Positions 31,224 to 45,859 of a stretch of DNA of 64,000 nt are shown in pieces. Each line of letters opens with the position of its first letter. Positions within the stretch are counted from its first letter, which is position 1. The translations under genes were made by a program, and so were the position numbers. A model generated the notes under the pieces. That model did no database searches. It saw nothing but the letters and a program-made list of their open reading frames with translations, and was not told the origin of the DNA. The stretch comes from an uncultured Gammaproteobacteria bacterium (GTDB taxonomy: Bacteria > Pseudomonadota > Gammaproteobacteria > Arenicellales > JAANXG01), in the NCBI GenBank assembly GCA_947259175.1, contig CAMYKW010000002.1, positions 31,254-95,253 on the forward strand. Reading direction: 5' to 3'.

Positions 31224-31616
31224 TCACACCACTTGCGAGGCCCGGGTGGTTCGCCATCCGCAAGGCTGGTCAAAATTGATCAGATGATCACGAAACGATG
31301 CGGCCAAATTTTTCGCTATCCTGGCATCGTCCTGCGGCGCGCCGCTGCGATAGCGAAACATCGCGGTTGTGATCTCGTCCAGCAGGCGCTGGTGGTCCGC
31401 CTGGTGCGCCTCATAACCTTCATTGCACTGTGTCCTCATGACCGCCTCTTCGTAGGCGAAGTGCTTCGCATAGCTCGCGTAGAGATTGCCGAGTAGCTCA
31501 AGCATTCCCGACTCGCGCTCACCGAGCTGCCGGAGAAGCTCAACTTGCCTGCGATGCTCGGCGTTCAATTTCACGGTCCGTCCGTGAACCGTCTGTTTAG
31601 CGTCCCATGTCGTCAT
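31224..31616 (-). CDS. hemerythrin-like oxygen- or iron-binding protein
   Basis: A 130-residue four-helix-bundle protein with the hemerythrin ligands in order: H in LNAEHRRQ, H and E in YAKHFAYEEAVM, two H in HQADHQRLLDE, and H-x4-D in RDHLINFDQ. Bacteriohemerythrins bind O2 at a di-iron centre and may store, deliver or sense oxygen. A GGAG lies before paired ATGs at 31619 and 31616. It stands alone between two noncoding stretches. Confidence 0.85.
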   Translation of the reverse strand: MTTWDAKQTVHGRTVKLNAEHRRQVELLRQLGERESGMLELLGNLYASYAKHFAYEEAVMRTQCNEGYEAHQADHQRLLDEITTAMFRYRSGAPQDDARIAKNLAASFRDHLINFDQPCGWRTTRASQVV

Positions 31617-32027
31617 CATCAACTCCACTTAAGTTCGAATGTGTCCCGAGAATTCGGCCGGCGGCATCCGTCGGCGCCGGTGGTGTCAAGCACCAGAATC
31701 TCTGCACCCGCGTCGTCCCGCGGTCTCGCTCCAAACCCCTTTTCAAGTGGAATTGCTTTATTGGTCCTGGTTCTTATTTGAAGTTAGACGCCATTTCTTA
31801 TCTTGTCCAGTAGATTTGCCCGCTAAGTTGCTGTGTTTCAGTGGAAAATGTCGCAAGTTCGTTGTAGTTTTGCTGATCTACGCGCTTCGCGGCGCCCCGC
31901 TGGCGGCACCCGGTGTGGCGCCAATGCGGCCTTTGGATTTAGTCAGCGGGGCGCCGGATCGGCGCGTCGCGGGTTGGTGTCCATGCCCGTAACACCGGCA
32001 AACGGAGCACCGGCCATGGCCGGAATG
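31617..32027. other. 411-base gap with a long-stem inverted repeat
   Basis: No supported gene is seen. GGCGCCCCGCTG (31891-31902) and its exact complement CAGCGGGGCGCC (31944-31955) form a 12-bp GC stem with 41 bases between. It lies 73-137 bases past the sfsA stop, in the 3' direction of the four-gene minus-strand operon. It could end or protect that transcript. Confidence 0.5.
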
Positions 32028-32738
32028 TCAAACGTTTTCCAGAACGGCGCATCCCGCGGTCTCGATGCCGGACTGGGTGTGGCGTAAACGCACGGCCATT
32101 ACCTCCACGCCTTGCCGCGCCACCGCCGTGAGGGTTTCGGCGTAGTCCGGATCGATATCCCAGGCGGGTTCGAAGGCGCGACCTTCGGACCGGTTGACCG
32201 CGAACACGATCACCCCGCGAAAACCCCGCCTGACCGCTTCGCGCAACAACTCGAGATGCTTGCGTCCGCGTAGGGTAATCGCATCGGGAAAGCGGATGCT
32301 GTCACCTTCCAGCAAGGTGGCGTTTTTTACCTCGACATAAGTGTCCCGCGCCCGGCCGCGGGTCAGATGCAGGTCGAACCGGGATCGGGGGAATCCATCG
32401 GCAACGAATTGAGGTTCAGTAGCGATGCACTGGTAGCCTGCGAGCGGTGCGATGCGCCCTGCGCCGATCGCCTCGGCAATTACGCCGTTGACACGGCCGG
32501 TGTGCACCCCGATCCAACCCTGCCCCATGTCCACGCGTTCCAGCGTCCAGGCGAGCTTGCGTCTGGGGTTGTCGCTGTGGCTGACTTGCGCCTTGGCCCC
32601 CGGCGCCCAGCAGCTGGCCATCGAGCCGGTGTTGGGGCAGTGAGCGATGATGCGGCGCCCGTCGTCAAGATCCACGTCGGCGAGAAAGCGTTTATAGCGA
32701 GTGAGGATGCGGCCGTCGTACAGTGGAGGGAGGTCCAT
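32028..32738 (-). CDS. sfsA: SfsA (sugar fermentation stimulation) family protein
   Basis: A 236-residue protein matching SfsA: RYKRFLADVDLDDGRRIIAH, CPNTGSMASCWAPG, YVEVKNATLLEGDSIRFPDA and GVIVFAVNRSEGRAF. The VEVKN motif is that of a nuclease-like PD-(D/E)XK fold with an OB domain. In E. coli, SfsA affects maltose metabolism and was described as DNA-binding; its true role is unsettled. It is the last gene of an apparent operon with a NodIJ-type exporter and a glucan-phosphatase-like gene (18-base gap to the permease). Confidence 0.93.
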   Translation of the reverse strand: MDLPPLYDGRILTRYKRFLADVDLDDGRRIIAHCPNTGSMASCWAPGAKAQVSHSDNPRRKLAWTLERVDMGQGWIGVHTGRVNGVIAEAIGAGRIAPLAGYQCIATEPQFVADGFPRSRFDLHLTRGRARDTYVEVKNATLLEGDSIRFPDAITLRGRKHLELLREAVRRGFRGVIVFAVNRSEGRAFEPAWDIDPDYAETLTAVARQGVEVMAVRLRHTQSGIETAGCAVLENV

Positions 32739-32756
32739 CTGTTGCTGGTCTGAGTG

Positions 32757-33533
32757 TTAAACGATCAACCGGCGGCGTACGAGGATAACCGCCAGGTAAT
32801 AGCTGACGGCCGCATAGATCAGCAACACCCCGAGGTGGAGGCCGGTGTCGACCAGGACTTGATCGGCGACCAACGGCCGCACCAGGGCGACGGCGTGGGT
32901 CAAGGGCAGAACCTGAACGAAAGACTGCAGGGCGGCGGGCAGGCTGTCGATGGGATAGAAGACGCCGCATAGTATGAACATTGGGGTGATGAACAGGGTG
33001 AAATAATAATTAAAGAAATCATAACTTTTTGAGAATGCGCTCATGACGATGGCGGGGCCGGCAAAACACAGGCCGATTACGAAGGCGATCGGTACTACCA
33101 GCACCGCAGCGTAGCTCAACACCGCGCCAAGCAGCGATGCCACCAGCAGGATCGCGGCGGCGCTGATGGTGCTTTTGGTGGCGCACCACAGCATCTCACC
33201 AGCGATGATATCGTCTACATCCAGGGGCGTCGCCAGCATCGATCCATAGGTGCGCTGCGGCACCATGCGGGTGTAGACCGAGTACATCCCCTCGAAACTG
33301 GCGGTGTTCATGGCCGAAGACGCCACGATTCCGGAAGCCAGAAAGGTGAGATACGGCAGGCCGGCCATATCGCCGATGAACACGCCCAGGCCGAATCCCA
33401 GCCCGAGCAGATATAGAAACGGTTCACCGAAGTTGATCAGCAGGCTCGGCGTGATGAGCTTGCGCCACACCAGGATATTGCGGCGCCACACCTTGAGCGC
33501 CCTGGGGCGGATACGGGGCACGCGAAGATCCAT
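32757..33533 (-). CDS. ABC-2 type export permease, NodJ-like
   Basis: A 258-residue permease with six membrane helices. It follows NodJ: LLGLGFGLGVFIGD, YLTFLASGIVASSAMNTASF, LATPLDVDDIIAGEMLWCAT and FFNYYFTLFITPMF. NodIJ relatives export lipo-oligosaccharides in rhizobia; in other bacteria the substrate is usually unknown. It ends 18 bases before sfsA and starts 2 bases after the ATPase stop. The nodJ symbol is not used because no Nod factor genes are present. Confidence 0.9.
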   Translation of the reverse strand: MDLRVPRIRPRALKVWRRNILVWRKLITPSLLINFGEPFLYLLGLGFGLGVFIGDMAGLPYLTFLASGIVASSAMNTASFEGMYSVYTRMVPQRTYGSMLATPLDVDDIIAGEMLWCATKSTISAAAILLVASLLGAVLSYAAVLVVPIAFVIGLCFAGPAIVMSAFSKSYDFFNYYFTLFITPMFILCGVFYPIDSLPAALQSFVQVLPLTHAVALVRPLVADQVLVDTGLHLGVLLIYAAVSYYLAVILVRRRLIV

Positions 33534-33535
33534 GA

Positions 33536-34465
33536 TTACTCGCGCAGATCGCGACCGGTGATATTGAGAAACACGTCTTCCAGGTTCGCCGGCCGGTGCA
33601 GAAAACTCAGCTCCGGCATGCCTTGCAGCAGCTCGGTCAATGGCCTGGAGTCATGGGTGTAGCAATAGACAGTGTCACCAACGGTTTCCATGCGGCAGTC
33701 GGCGTCTTTGCGCAACAAAACCTCGAAGTTGCGATCTGCGCCGCGCAATTCCAACACCTCGGGCTCGACGTGCTCGCGGATCAACGCGGCGGGCGAACCC
33801 TGGGCGATGATGGCGCCGTGGTCGATGATGAGCAGGTCGTCGCACAGGCGTTCCGCTTCTTCCATATAGTGCGTGGTCAACAGCAACGTTTTTCCAGACT
33901 GCTTCAGGTCGCGCAACCGCGCCCAGATCATGTGGCGCACCTGGGGGTCGAGGCCGGTCGTGGGTTCGTCGAGGACTACGAGATCCGGATCGTTGATGAG
34001 CGCCCGGGCGATCGTCAGGCGACGCTTCATGCCGCCGGAGAGTTCATCCACACGCGCGCCGGCGCGGTCGGCGAGGCTTGCGAACGCAAGCAGATCGGTG
34101 ATGCGCGCGTCCAACCTACGGCCTTCCAGTCCGAAGTAACTGCCGTAGACGCGCAGGTTTTCGGCAATGGTGAAATCCGGATCGAGGTCGTCCTCCTGGG
34201 GCACCACGCCGATGCGGGCGCGTACCGCGCTGGCGTGCTGCGGCAAGCGTCTGCCGAATACGTTTAACTCGCCGGCGGTGAGCGGAGATTGTCCGAGGAT
34301 CATTTTGATGGTTGTCGTCTTGCCGGCCCCGTTGGGACCGAGCAGGCCGAAGCACTGCCCCCTCGGCACGGTGAAGCTGACATGCCGCACCACCTGCTGT
34401 TCGCCGAACTGTTTGGTTACTCCGACGGCCTCAATGACGGTCCTCGCGGCCTGGGTATCGATCAT
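33536..34465 (-). CDS. ABC transporter ATP-binding protein, NodI-like
   Basis: A 309-residue ATPase with Walker A LLGPNGAGKTTTIKM, signature LSGGMKRRLTIARALI, Walker B LVVLDEPTTGLDP and the switch His in LLLTTHYMEEAERLC. The NodI-like linker QVRHMIWARLRDLKQSGKT is present. It energises the NodJ-like permease downstream. Its ATG overlaps the phosphatase stop by 4 bases (ATGA type), implying translational coupling. Confidence 0.94.
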   Translation of the reverse strand: MIDTQAARTVIEAVGVTKQFGEQQVVRHVSFTVPRGQCFGLLGPNGAGKTTTIKMILGQSPLTAGELNVFGRRLPQHASAVRARIGVVPQEDDLDPDFTIAENLRVYGSYFGLEGRRLDARITDLLAFASLADRAGARVDELSGGMKRRLTIARALINDPDLVVLDEPTTGLDPQVRHMIWARLRDLKQSGKTLLLTTHYMEEAERLCDDLLIIDHGAIIAQGSPAALIREHVEPEVLELRGADRNFEVLLRKDADCRMETVGDTVYCYTHDSRPLTELLQGMPELSFLHRPANLEDVFLNITGRDLRE

Positions 34466-34974
34466 GTGCCGGCGACGCTGCGCACTGCTTCCCGGTCTAC
34501 GCTGGCCTGTTTAATGGCGTCGATGTATGGGGAGCAGGCGCGCTGGTCGCTGACGAATCGATGCGCCTGTTCCAGATCCCATCCCTGGACCCAGCTTAGA
34601 TAGGCGATTGTTACACCAGGAGCGCGGCCAATCCCGGCGGTGCAATGCACGTACACCCGGTGCCCGGCACCGAGCAGGGCATGCAATTGATCCACCGCGC
34701 CACCGAGGCGCCTGCGCAGATCCTGGGGATCAAAGTCCCGGATCGGCCAGCGCACCAGCACCAGGTCCCGGGCTTGATATCGTTTGTACACTGCGTCCCA
34801 GTTCAGTCCATGCTGAACGAAATCCTCGTCAGTCTGCAGGTTCAGCACTCCAGTTATGCGCGGTCCGGTGGTTAGCCGGTCGACATCCACCGGGGTGCGT
34901 GGACAGGTGCCGATAAACAGCTCGGGTTGAATGCGTGACAGGTTGATCACATTAACGGTGACGGTGAAAACCAA
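34462..34974 (-). CDS. dual-specificity phosphatase resembling plant glucan phosphatases (SEX4/LSF2 type)
   Basis: A 170-residue single-domain phosphatase. The catalytic P-loop is 109-VHCTAGIGRAPG-120 (C111, R117), and the general acid is D80 in PIRDFDPQDLR. Recalled similarity to Arabidopsis LSF2 and SEX4 runs through the domain: a RIxPxLxIG start, VLNLQTDEDF, the DFDP-LR motif, HC-AG-GRAP with AY--WVQG, and a C-terminal R-C-P---AI--A--D. It has no carbohydrate-binding module. It may dephosphorylate a glucan, a phospho-oligosaccharide or a protein. It is first in the operon with a NodIJ-type exporter and sfsA. Confidence 0.85.
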   Translation of the reverse strand: MVFTVTVNVINLSRIQPELFIGTCPRTPVDVDRLTTGPRITGVLNLQTDEDFVQHGLNWDAVYKRYQARDLVLVRWPIRDFDPQDLRRRLGGAVDQLHALLGAGHRVYVHCTAGIGRAPGVTIAYLSWVQGWDLEQAHRFVSDQRACSPYIDAIKQASVDREAVRSVAGT

Positions 34975-35349: not shown

Positions 35350-36333
35350 CTATCCGCCCCCGGCTTCGTAGACTTCAGTATCCGGGTGAAATGCGACCCA
35401 CGCGAACCAGTATGCGATAGTCGACGGAATTTCTTTCCCGTGTTCATCAACGATGCGGCCGCTGCGGTTTCGGGCGTCGAATTCAATGGTCAGCAGACGC
35501 CCCGCGAAACGGTCATTGACTACCGCCGGTCCCTTGGAAAGTTCGGCAAACGGGTAGACTTTCGCCTGCTCACCGATTTTTAAACCCATCACCATTTCCT
35601 TGGGATGGTATTTCGGGTTTTTGTTATTGACTGGGAAGAACACCCTGGACGTTTTCTCGTAACCCACGTACGGGCTGCGGCTGTAATCTCGACGGTGACC
35701 GGTGTCGGTTGACAGCACCAGAGTCTTGGGATGTCGCTCGCGCCAGTCGCGCCAACTGGTATGGGTAAGCGCGACCTGACGCAGGCGTGTTCCCCTCATC
35801 TTTCCGCTGATGGCCTTGCCCATAATCTGCGACCACAGGGATTCGGTCTCCCGGTCGTAGAGAAGTACATCGCTGTTGTAGAGCAAGCCGGATACGCCAA
35901 AACTGTGAATCGTCCCTCCGACCTTAGCCGAAAAAGCCATCCCGGTCCCGCAAAGCGGGCAGAAGCTTACCACTATGGCCTCTTCGCCGAATTTATCATT
36001 GACGATTTCATGGTAGTCTAGGATGCGGACCGGATACGCCTTGGCGATACCGTTGCGGTACATGCCCAGTACGCGATCAGCTTCGGCCATGAACGCTGCG
36101 CCGTCAACGCGGACAAAATTGGGATTGTCGATGGCCGGGATACCGTCCCGCGGCGGCCCGCCATGATGAATCTGTCCTCGAGGAACCAGGGTGCCGGACA
36201 GGTCAAACCCGTTGGTGCGTGCCGCGGCCAGGCCCAATGAGACAGTCACTGCATATAACACCGTCGCGGTGAGTAGATAGGCGGCCGAGCGGCGCCAAAT
36301 AATTGCCATCGCTTGCGTCTCGGTTGCTTGCAT
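35350..36333 (-). CDS. DUF3179 domain-containing exported protein
   Basis: A 327-residue protein with an N-terminal membrane or signal helix (around SAAYLLTATVLYAVTVSLGL). The DUF3179 core follows: YPVRILDYHEIVNDKFG, VVSFCPLCGTGMAFSAKVGG, with its CPLCGT cysteines, and LYDRETESLWSQIMGKA. The family is common in marine and soil bacteria; its function is unknown. ATG 36333 is used; ATG 36309 is also possible. It is divergent from lon. Confidence 0.9.
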   Translation of the reverse strand: MQATETQAMAIIWRRSAAYLLTATVLYAVTVSLGLAAARTNGFDLSGTLVPRGQIHHGGPPRDGIPAIDNPNFVRVDGAAFMAEADRVLGMYRNGIAKAYPVRILDYHEIVNDKFGEEAIVVSFCPLCGTGMAFSAKVGGTIHSFGVSGLLYNSDVLLYDRETESLWSQIMGKAISGKMRGTRLRQVALTHTSWRDWRERHPKTLVLSTDTGHRRDYSRSPYVGYEKTSRVFFPVNNKNPKYHPKEMVMGLKIGEQAKVYPFAELSKGPAVVNDRFAGRLLTIEFDARNRSGRIVDEHGKEIPSTIAYWFAWVAFHPDTEVYEAGGG

Positions 36334-36497
36334 AGTCAATCATGACCCGGGAAGTCGAATGATGCTTACATGGACAGCGATACGTCGCCGGGATTCCCTT
36401 GAAGCGGGTGGTCGGGGGCATGCCCCGGGCTCGTGCCGGTCTTGAATTCCCCGCTGTGGGCCGCATAACTAACTAAATAGTATAAGGATTCTCAATA

Positions 36498-44794: not shown

Positions 44795-45859
44795 TTACTG
44801 ATGGTACGGAATGCTGAGCTCGTGTACCGCATCGATCAATGACCCGACGTGATCGGGATCGATGGTCGGGGTGACGCCGTGACCGAGGTTGAACACGTGG
44901 CCGCTTCCATGACCAAAACGGTCCAGTATCGTGCCCGCCTCCTCGCGAATTCGCTCCGGCGCCGCGTGCAGCACCGACGGATCCATGTTGCCCTGCAGTG
45001 CCGCACGGTCACCCACCCGGTGACGTGCATCGCCAATGTCGACTGTCCAGTCCAACCCGATCGCGTCACAGCCGGTGTCGGCGATGCGTTCCAACCACTG
45101 GCCGCCCCCTTTGGTGAACAGCACCACCGGTATGCGGTTACCGTCGATCTCACGGACCAGGCCGTCCACGATTTGCTGCATATAGGCAAGGGAAAAATGC
45201 TCATAGGCACGGGCGGTCAGCAGCCCGCCCCAGGTGTCGAAAATCATCACCGCCTGCACGCCGGCGGAGATCTGTGCATTCAGGTAGTCAGTGACACTTC
45301 GCGTTACCGTTGCCAACAACTGACGCAGCGCCTGCGGATCATCGTAAAGCAGGGTCTTGGTAATCGCAAAGTCCCGGCTGCCGCGGCCTTCCACCATGTA
45401 GCTCGCCAAGGTCCATGGACTTCCGCTGAAGCCAATCAGCGGCACGCGGCCGTCAAGTTCACGGCGTATCAAACGCACCGCATCCATGACATAACGCAAC
45501 TCTATTTCCGGGTCCGGCAGTGGAAGCGCTTCGATCTCCACGCGTCGGCGCACCGGATGCGCGAACCTTGGTCCTTCGCCTTCGTTTATAGTGAGTCCCA
45601 GACCCATGGCGTCCGGTATAGTCAGGATGTCGGAGAACAGGATCGCCGCATCCAGGGCAAATCGTTCCAGGGGCTGCAAAGTCACTTCGCAGGCCATCTC
45701 CGGCGATTTACATAAAGTCATGAAGTCGCCGGCGCGTTTGCGCGTGGCACGATACTCGGGGAGATAGCGCCCGGCCTGGCGCATGATCCAGATTGGCGTG
45801 CGGTCCACGGGTTTGCGCAGCAGCGCGCGGATCAGGCGGTCGTTCTTGAGTGGCACCAT
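44795..45859 (-). CDS. hemE: HemE, uroporphyrinogen decarboxylase
   Basis: A 354-residue enzyme with the signatures [20 protein letters not shown] near the start and [20 protein letters not shown]. It removes four carboxyl groups from uroporphyrinogen III to give coproporphyrinogen III in heme synthesis. Full length. It starts 8 bases after the pyrF stop on the same strand, so the two are probably co-transcribed. Confidence 0.97.

Follow-up and report, generated by a model that had tools for sequence, protein, structure and literature searches.

A bacterial dual-specificity phosphatase akin to LSF2, SEX4, and laforin beside a NodIJ-family exporter in an Arenicellales genome

Do bacteria have glucan phosphatases of their own and, if so, could one of them work together with an exporter? 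The question is raised by a locus in the stretch of 64,000 nucleotides that we analyzed, hereafter the window, which comes from an uncultured gammaproteobacterium of the order Arenicellales. Four packed genes lie there on the minus strand, at the coordinates and with the spacings reported in an earlier note made from the sequence alone. They encode, in this order, a dual-specificity phosphatase (DSP, 34462..34974), the NodI-like ATP-binding subunit of an ABC-2 exporter (33536..34465), the NodJ-family membrane subunit of that exporter (32757..33533), and SfsA (32028..32738), and are separated by an overlap of 4 bases, a gap of 2 bases, and a gap of 18 bases. The earlier note compared the phosphatase with the plant enzymes SEX4 and LSF2 and proposed that the four genes form an undescribed system acting on a phosphorylated oligosaccharide or glucan, either by dephosphorylating and exporting it or by controlling it. 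We hold, with moderate confidence, a narrower reading: the DSP is a single-domain cysteine-dependent phosphatase of a bacterial branch of the glucan phosphatases, its substrate is likely a phosphorylated sugar, oligosaccharide, or alpha-glucan, and its gene probably belongs to a compact operon with a NodIJ-family exporter and SfsA.

The kinship of the DSP is apparent in its sequence, its predicted fold, its catalytic residues, and its placement in trees. The protein matches the Pfam family DSPc with 51.9 bits (cut-off 33.5). When its single sequence was searched against the PDB, the best matches were SEX4 (E = 5.8e-30), LSF2 (6.5e-30), LSF1 (1.6e-22), and laforin (1.1e-19), with other DSPs at 2e-6 or worse. 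The likeness to SEX4 and LSF2 over the whole domain thus holds up, since it spans residues 11-160 and, at E values around 6e-30, lies far beyond chance. A profile built from 18 relatives gave the same four enzymes, LSF2 (3.8e-39), SEX4 (1.9e-37), LSF1 (3.3e-36), and laforin (1.1e-22). The DSP domain of laforin, used as a query in its turn, matched LSF2 at only 5e-9 and SEX4 at 3e-6, and because these matches are so weak we place the bacterial DSP between the plant and the animal enzymes. The AlphaFold2 model of the DSP, computed from 50 sequences, has a mean predicted local distance difference test score (pLDDT) of 94.5. The first Foldseek match of this model is LSF2 (E = 8e-17, root-mean-square deviation 0.9 Å, TM-score 0.87), followed by SEX4 and laforin, and the VIA-align Z scores are 25.3 for LSF2, 23.1 for SEX4, and 22.0 for laforin. 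Other candidates for the nearest kin (KAP, Tk-PTP, PTPMT1, VHR, and MKPs) rank lower in VIA-align or Foldseek.

The active site is that of the family: the DSP fold carries the HCX5R signature and the upstream catalytic aspartate as H110-C111...R117 and D80, so the three residues singled out in the earlier note (C111, R117, and D80) are all present. This numbering starts from the TTG at 34974. The GTG at 34950 is the likelier start, because many relatives start there and because residues 1-7 of the model have a pLDDT below 50. The active-site loop reads CTAGIGR in the window, CTAGMGR in SEX4 (with the wild-type cysteine written in), and CSAGLGR in LSF2. Hence, HCTAGIGR in the window conforms to the loop HCxAGxGR, whose residues are named for OsttaDSP and LSF2 in the accessible portion of PMC5779698. 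No variation occurs at C111, G114, or R117 among 80 family members, 70 of which retain F81.

Each of the three relatives resembles the DSP in its own way. LSF2 is the best fold match (38% identity in the Foldseek alignment) and, like the window DSP, consists of a DSP domain without a carbohydrate-binding module; the loop, the catalytic aspartate, and the equivalent of F162 are kept. It differs in that its residues Y135-W136 are replaced by Q-H, that Y83 and Y85 have no counterpart if the start is the GTG, and that the window DSP is bacterial and adjoins an exporter. SEX4 is 39% identical in the Foldseek alignment and has a Y-F pair where the window DSP has Q-H. Laforin lacks the plant aromatic pair too, and has a recognition-loop insertion that is missing from the window DSP. 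Both SEX4 and laforin have a carbohydrate-binding module, whereas a Pfam scan found none in the 170 residues of the DSP. Fusions of family members to such a module were considered as well, but the long open reading frames around some of the DSPs look, by eye, like the product of over-extended starts.

To place the DSP among its relatives, we scanned genome contigs and found 146 of them, of which the best 80 were used; this sample leans to the kin of the window and consists mostly of metagenome bins. According to the record titles, they come from Arenicellales, other Gammaproteobacteria, Competibacter/Contendobacter, Planctomycetota, Acidobacteriota, Desulfobacterales, Myxococcales, Methylomirabilota, Binataceae, Alphaproteobacteria, and one bin named Nitrospira. 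A first tree of 77 rows was built from the window, VHR, four eukaryotic enzymes, 52 of the 80 relatives, 2 of 6 family members from beyond the order, and generic DSPs from 17 of 20 loci, the other three (L142, L143, and L156) being left out because they showed no HCX5R by pattern. All four eukaryotic enzymes fell among the bacterial family in this tree, the split from the generic DSPs was supported at 20/95, and a generic row with an end branch of 4.41 (GEN_L158) was placed inside the family. With 18 rows removed (11 of them for thinning, the others being one bacterial and six long generic rows), a second tree of 59 rows was obtained, in which laforin and one generic row remained long. Here, the split that sets 10 generic DSPs/VHR apart from 45 bacterial rows (the window and 44 others, from several phyla) and the four eukaryotic ones has a support of 96/97. 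The DSP thus groups with SEX4, LSF2, LSF1, and laforin. We do not regard it as a generic bacterial DSP, the grouping by which the earlier note would have been refuted; neither sequence nor fold nor tree favors that placement, with the caveat of one approximately unbiased (AU) test given below. In each of the two trees, the eukaryotic rows fall within the bacteria. AU tests reject neither a single bacterial clade (p = 0.445) nor a single eukaryotic clade (p = 0.443), the groups having been picked after the tree was seen. Hence, sequence, fold, and tree favor membership in the glucan-phosphatase clade, and the AU tests reject neither direction of descent.

Does the organism have a glucan on which such an enzyme could act? 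The earlier note suggested looking for glycogen or phosphorylated glucans in the organism, and the genome of the window carries genes for GlgA, GlgB, GlgC, GH57, GH77, and phosphorylase in one stretch. We then counted strong DSP matches (E of 1e-40 or better) and GlgB (only over its cut-off) in the 109 genomes of the order: the former occurs in 46, the latter in 16, and both in 14. In other words, the DSP is present in 14 of the 16 genomes with GlgB vs 32 of the 93 without it (Fisher p = 8e-5, uncorrected for descent). When the family of the window is set aside, the DSP is present in 5 of 7 GlgB genomes (p = 0.045). A putative glucan substrate for the DSP is therefore possible.

Several observations weigh against such a substrate, or against the kinship itself. 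In the profile search, VHR (1.1e-18) comes close after laforin. One AU test does not reject the grouping of the clade of the window with generic DSPs (p = 0.155). A loop of the form C.AG[ILVM]GR is found in only 25 of the 80 family members, the position of G116 being occupied by G in 30, N in 22, C in 16 (of the Arenicella type), Q in 6, E in 5, and D in 1. The aromatic channel of LSF2, given as Y83, Y85, Y135, W136, and F162 in the accessible text of PMC5779698, is represented by a single residue out of five, F162 (F81 in the window), and Y135-W136 correspond to Q54-H55. Aromatic residues occupy both of these places in 7 of the 80 members, whose labels are Planctomycetota, Acidobacteriota/Blastocatellia, or Desulfobacterales. 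This difference from LSF2 is not decisive, because laforin also lacks aromatics at the three channel positions compared, where it has Q, N, and M in a gapped part of the alignment. The association with GlgB has its exceptions too: 32 of the order's 46 DSP genomes show no GlgB over the cut-off, including 19 of 20 in the Arenicella family. Among 43 further DSP genomes, chosen as lying outside the order, GlgB occurs in 28, compared with 157 of 284 genomes of the class, which is no clear excess; two of the 43 (G474 and G501, one of them with GlgB) are members of the order by their identical coordinates, and a third (G494) probably is. Finally, the glycogen genes of the window's genome have no homologue (E = 1e-8) in the 80 DSP loci (1.05 Mb, with a control run). 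A glycogen locus was thus rejected, as homologues of GlgA, GlgB, GlgC, phosphorylase, GH57, GH77, and the dikinase described below are all absent from these loci.

The DSP might thus share its ancestry and fold with the glucan phosphatases and act on another substrate, such as a glycerol or polyol phosphate, a phospholipid head group, another small phosphate, or a protein. We regard this as a real possibility, if a less probable one than a phosphorylated sugar, oligosaccharide, or glucan. It is consistent with the missing or sub-threshold GlgB just mentioned and with neighbors that vary by lineage, among which no alpha-glucan enzyme was identified: they include hemE-like genes, acyl-CoA genes in three Acidobacteriota loci, genes for anhydro-N-acetylmuramic acid kinase (AnmK), outer-membrane-like and TesA-like genes, and, in one locus (L097), genes for a FGGY kinase and a glycerophosphodiesterase. 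Furthermore, the first Foldseek match below the glucan phosphatases is PTPMT1 (7.6e-10), which is a lipid phosphatase. On the other hand, LSF2, SEX4, and laforin head every list, whether by sequence, profile, Foldseek, or VIA-align. Their lead is weakened by the proximity of VHR to laforin and by the isolated DSP chain of laforin, whose Z score of 19.2 is about that of Tk-PTP (19.6).

The neighbors are described here in their own right. In L097 (8550-12932), the DSP is followed on the same strand by genes for a FGGY kinase, a glycerophosphodiester phosphodiesterase, a FAD-dependent oxidoreductase, NodI, and NodJ. In three loci labelled Acidobacteria or Blastocatellia (L079, L090, and L123), the DSP is flanked at short distances by two genes, one enoyl-CoA-hydratase-like (by eye) and the other coding for a 3-hydroxyacyl-CoA dehydrogenase (3HCDH, by Pfam in L079). 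In three others from Acidobacteria (L102, L106, and L110), it stands near a mutS-like gene (by eye) and the gene for AnmK, which was identified by Pfam in L106 and by cluster in L102 and L110. The outer-membrane-like and TesA-like genes were recognized by eye.

Two dikinase-like proteins of about 1000 residues are encoded in the genome of the window (L247:2512-5592 on contig C24 and L248:2559-5534 on contig C9). Each has a match to the phosphohistidine domain, at or just below the Pfam cut-off, followed by a C-terminal PPDK_N ATP-grasp domain. This order is the reverse of that of phosphoenolpyruvate (PEP) synthases. One could imagine a reversible phosphoglucan cycle in which these proteins phosphorylate a glucan and the DSP removes the phosphate. 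Within the order the distribution is suggestive: the dikinase (E = 1e-60) occurs in 14 of the 109 genomes, of which all 14 have the DSP and 11 have GlgB. Yet 11 of these 14 belong to one family, without which the count is 3 of 3 with the DSP (p = 0.038). In the class, homologues of L248 (E = 1e-40) occur in 25 of 284 genomes, and GlgB is more frequent with them (20 of 25 vs 137 of 259 others, p = 0.007). However, only one of the 25, the window's own genome, has a strong DSP, and the two dikinase genomes among the 43 further DSP genomes are G474 and G501, both order members. The N-termini look signal-like by eye, which would be odd for an ATP-dependent enzyme, and the one protein searched against the PDB matched only PEP synthases. 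Hence, the association does not extend outside the order, and we consider such a cycle highly improbable.

We then asked whether the exporter and SfsA accompany the DSP. In the count over the 80 DSP loci, NodI matches of less than 45% identity were left out, and some loci end at contig edges. All four genes are found in 10 loci, DSP and NodIJ without SfsA in 3, DSP and SfsA without NodIJ in 10, and neither partner in 57. The ten four-gene loci all come from the order of the window, one of them with SfsA about 900 bases off. The three loci without SfsA are L063, L065 (which ends at a contig edge), and L097 (where the genes are 3.6 kb apart, on the same contig as G285). Linkage is conserved in the family of the window, where NodJ is present in 10 of 13 genomes and the order DSP-NodI-NodJ is kept in all 10, with SfsA after it (about 900 bases further in G006). 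The other DSPs of these NodIJ-bearing genomes are 53-78% identical to that of the window. As for the three genomes without NodJ, two (G009 and G012) keep DSP-SfsA, and in the third (G008) a first DSP stands at the edge of a contig, whereas a second (L062) lacks both partners. In another family, G017 has all four genes, with a DSP about 50% identical to the window's, and in G169 and G285 the DSP and NodJ share a strand at a distance of 4.5-5 kb.

The survey suggested in the earlier note therefore upholds the DSP-NodI-NodJ linkage in the window's own family and shows no general four-gene system. NodJ homologues are found in 41 of the order's 109 genomes (E = 1e-20) and in 70 of 369 genomes from the class (E = 1e-30). 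Of the former, 30 have no DSP of the family beside NodJ, which weighs against the linkage, and in G015 both genes are present on different contigs. A HAD-type phosphatase directly precedes nodI-nodJ in all 6 loci examined (L161, L162, L163, L167, L168, and L169) of another family of the order, f2, which has 27 NodJ genomes. The gene before nodI is that of an AMP-binding enzyme in one locus of family f5 and a prepilin-peptidase-like gene (by eye) in one locus of f4. A pairing of phosphatases with nodIJ in general was rejected, as the upstream genes vary, by eye, in 40 loci from the 70 class genomes. No upstream phosphatase was recognized by eye in them in a noisy listing of open reading frames, which contained two genes that look PpsR-like. 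Because the HAD-type phosphatase of f2 takes the slot of the DSP, the link between phosphatase and exporter stays alive as a lead.

What the exporter and SfsA are bears on the same point. NodJ passes the cut-off of its family (TIGR01291, 225.8 bits vs 206.65), so the likeness to the rhizobial Nod-factor transporter stands for the membrane subunit. It does not stand for NodI, an ABC_tran protein whose scores against the NCBIfam NodI models (397.6, 385.2, and 362.6 bits) are all below the equivalog cut-offs (521, 549, and 424); a true Nod-factor exporter was rejected on this ground, no search for nodA, nodB, or nodC having been made. Unlike rhizobial NodIJ, the exporter also has homologues across the class, in settings that varied where examined. 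SfsA passes its own cut-off (TIGR00230, 195.9 bits vs 126.45) and has, like E. coli SfsA, both the OB and the nuclease-like domain, but in this lineage it stands next to exporter and phosphatase genes. A role as a sugar gene, in line with the link to sugar metabolism raised in the earlier note, was rejected: PMC1189080 predicts that the family is a nuclease and gives a nuclease-type motif, FD...EVK, which is visible in the translation.

A single unit in which the four genes dephosphorylate and export, or control, a phosphorylated oligosaccharide or glucan is thus unlikely. In its favor are the NodI-NodJ genes directly after the DSP in the family of the window and in G017, their recurrence in L063 and L065, the looser arrangements of G169 and G285, and the HAD-type phosphatases of f2. 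They are outweighed by the 57 loci with neither partner, the 10 with SfsA and no NodIJ, the 30 NodJ genomes without an adjoining DSP, the separate contigs of G015, the loci of the class, and the predicted nuclease. As a general unit, the system of the earlier note is not supported, and a four-gene export system is not established, the exporter link being lineage-limited. In the narrower reading that we prefer, the exporter may share the pathway of the DSP, and SfsA is most likely outside it.

The surroundings of the four genes offer a hint about the history of the DSP. A hemE-like gene stands directly upstream of the DSP in 14 of the 80 loci, all of the Arenicella type. In the window, hemE itself (44795..45859, minus strand; URO-D, 458.9 bits in Pfam) is part of a block aroB-gltB-gltD-pyrF-hemE that shares the strand of the DSP and lies some 10 kb upstream of it, the names other than hemE being given by eye. 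It may mark an older position of the DSP. Given the hemE-like neighbors of the relatives and this block, the DSP may be an old resident and NodIJ a lineage-specific neighbor. Upstream of the DSP, on its strand, lies the gene of a DUF3179 protein (35350-36339, 301 bits), a protein of unknown function whose cluster occurs in 8 of 21 DSP neighborhoods. Downstream of sfsA is the gene of a hemerythrin-domain protein (31224-31628), whose cluster occurs in 5 of 21 neighborhoods, every one from the genus of the window.

How would the enzyme work? By analogy with its family, the DSP would be cytoplasmic, C111 would attack the phosphate, R117 would hold it, and D80 would protonate the leaving group. The substrate, most likely though unproven, would be a phosphate monoester on a sugar, an oligosaccharide, or an alpha-glucan, which would sit in an LSF2-like groove without the help of a carbohydrate-binding module. 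The spacing of the genes suggests that the DSP is the first gene of a compact operon with the NodIJ-family exporter and SfsA in this lineage.

Such an enzyme was not expected in bacteria. A 2009 survey (PMC2714694) reports that neither laforin nor SEX4 occurs in bacteria or archaea and judges the existence of a glucan phosphatase in bacteria to be unlikely, its criterion for absence being that no bacterial or archaeal protein has both a phosphatase and a carbohydrate-binding domain. Among the matches listed in our search of open-licence PMC papers, no title or beginning of an abstract named a bacterial glucan phosphatase, and the accessible parts of PMC13011383, PMC9254107, PMC5779698, and PMC12892837 mention none. 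Within the glucan-phosphatase clade, the DSP family is apparently a bacterial branch that has not been described before, and its exporter link is lineage-limited. A bolder version, in which bacteria have their own glucan phosphatases ancestral to the plant and animal enzymes, used here with a dikinase-like protein and the NodIJ exporter for the reversible phosphorylation of glycogen or an exported oligosaccharide, seems to us improbable, slightly more so than the four-gene unit. The DSP itself merits an assay. Being small, this bacterial enzyme is a domain in which to find the minimal features that give glucan specificity. With a bacterial branch of the clade in Pseudomonadota, Planctomycetota, Acidobacteriota, Myxococcota, and other bins, the origin of starch and glycogen dephosphorylation becomes testable.

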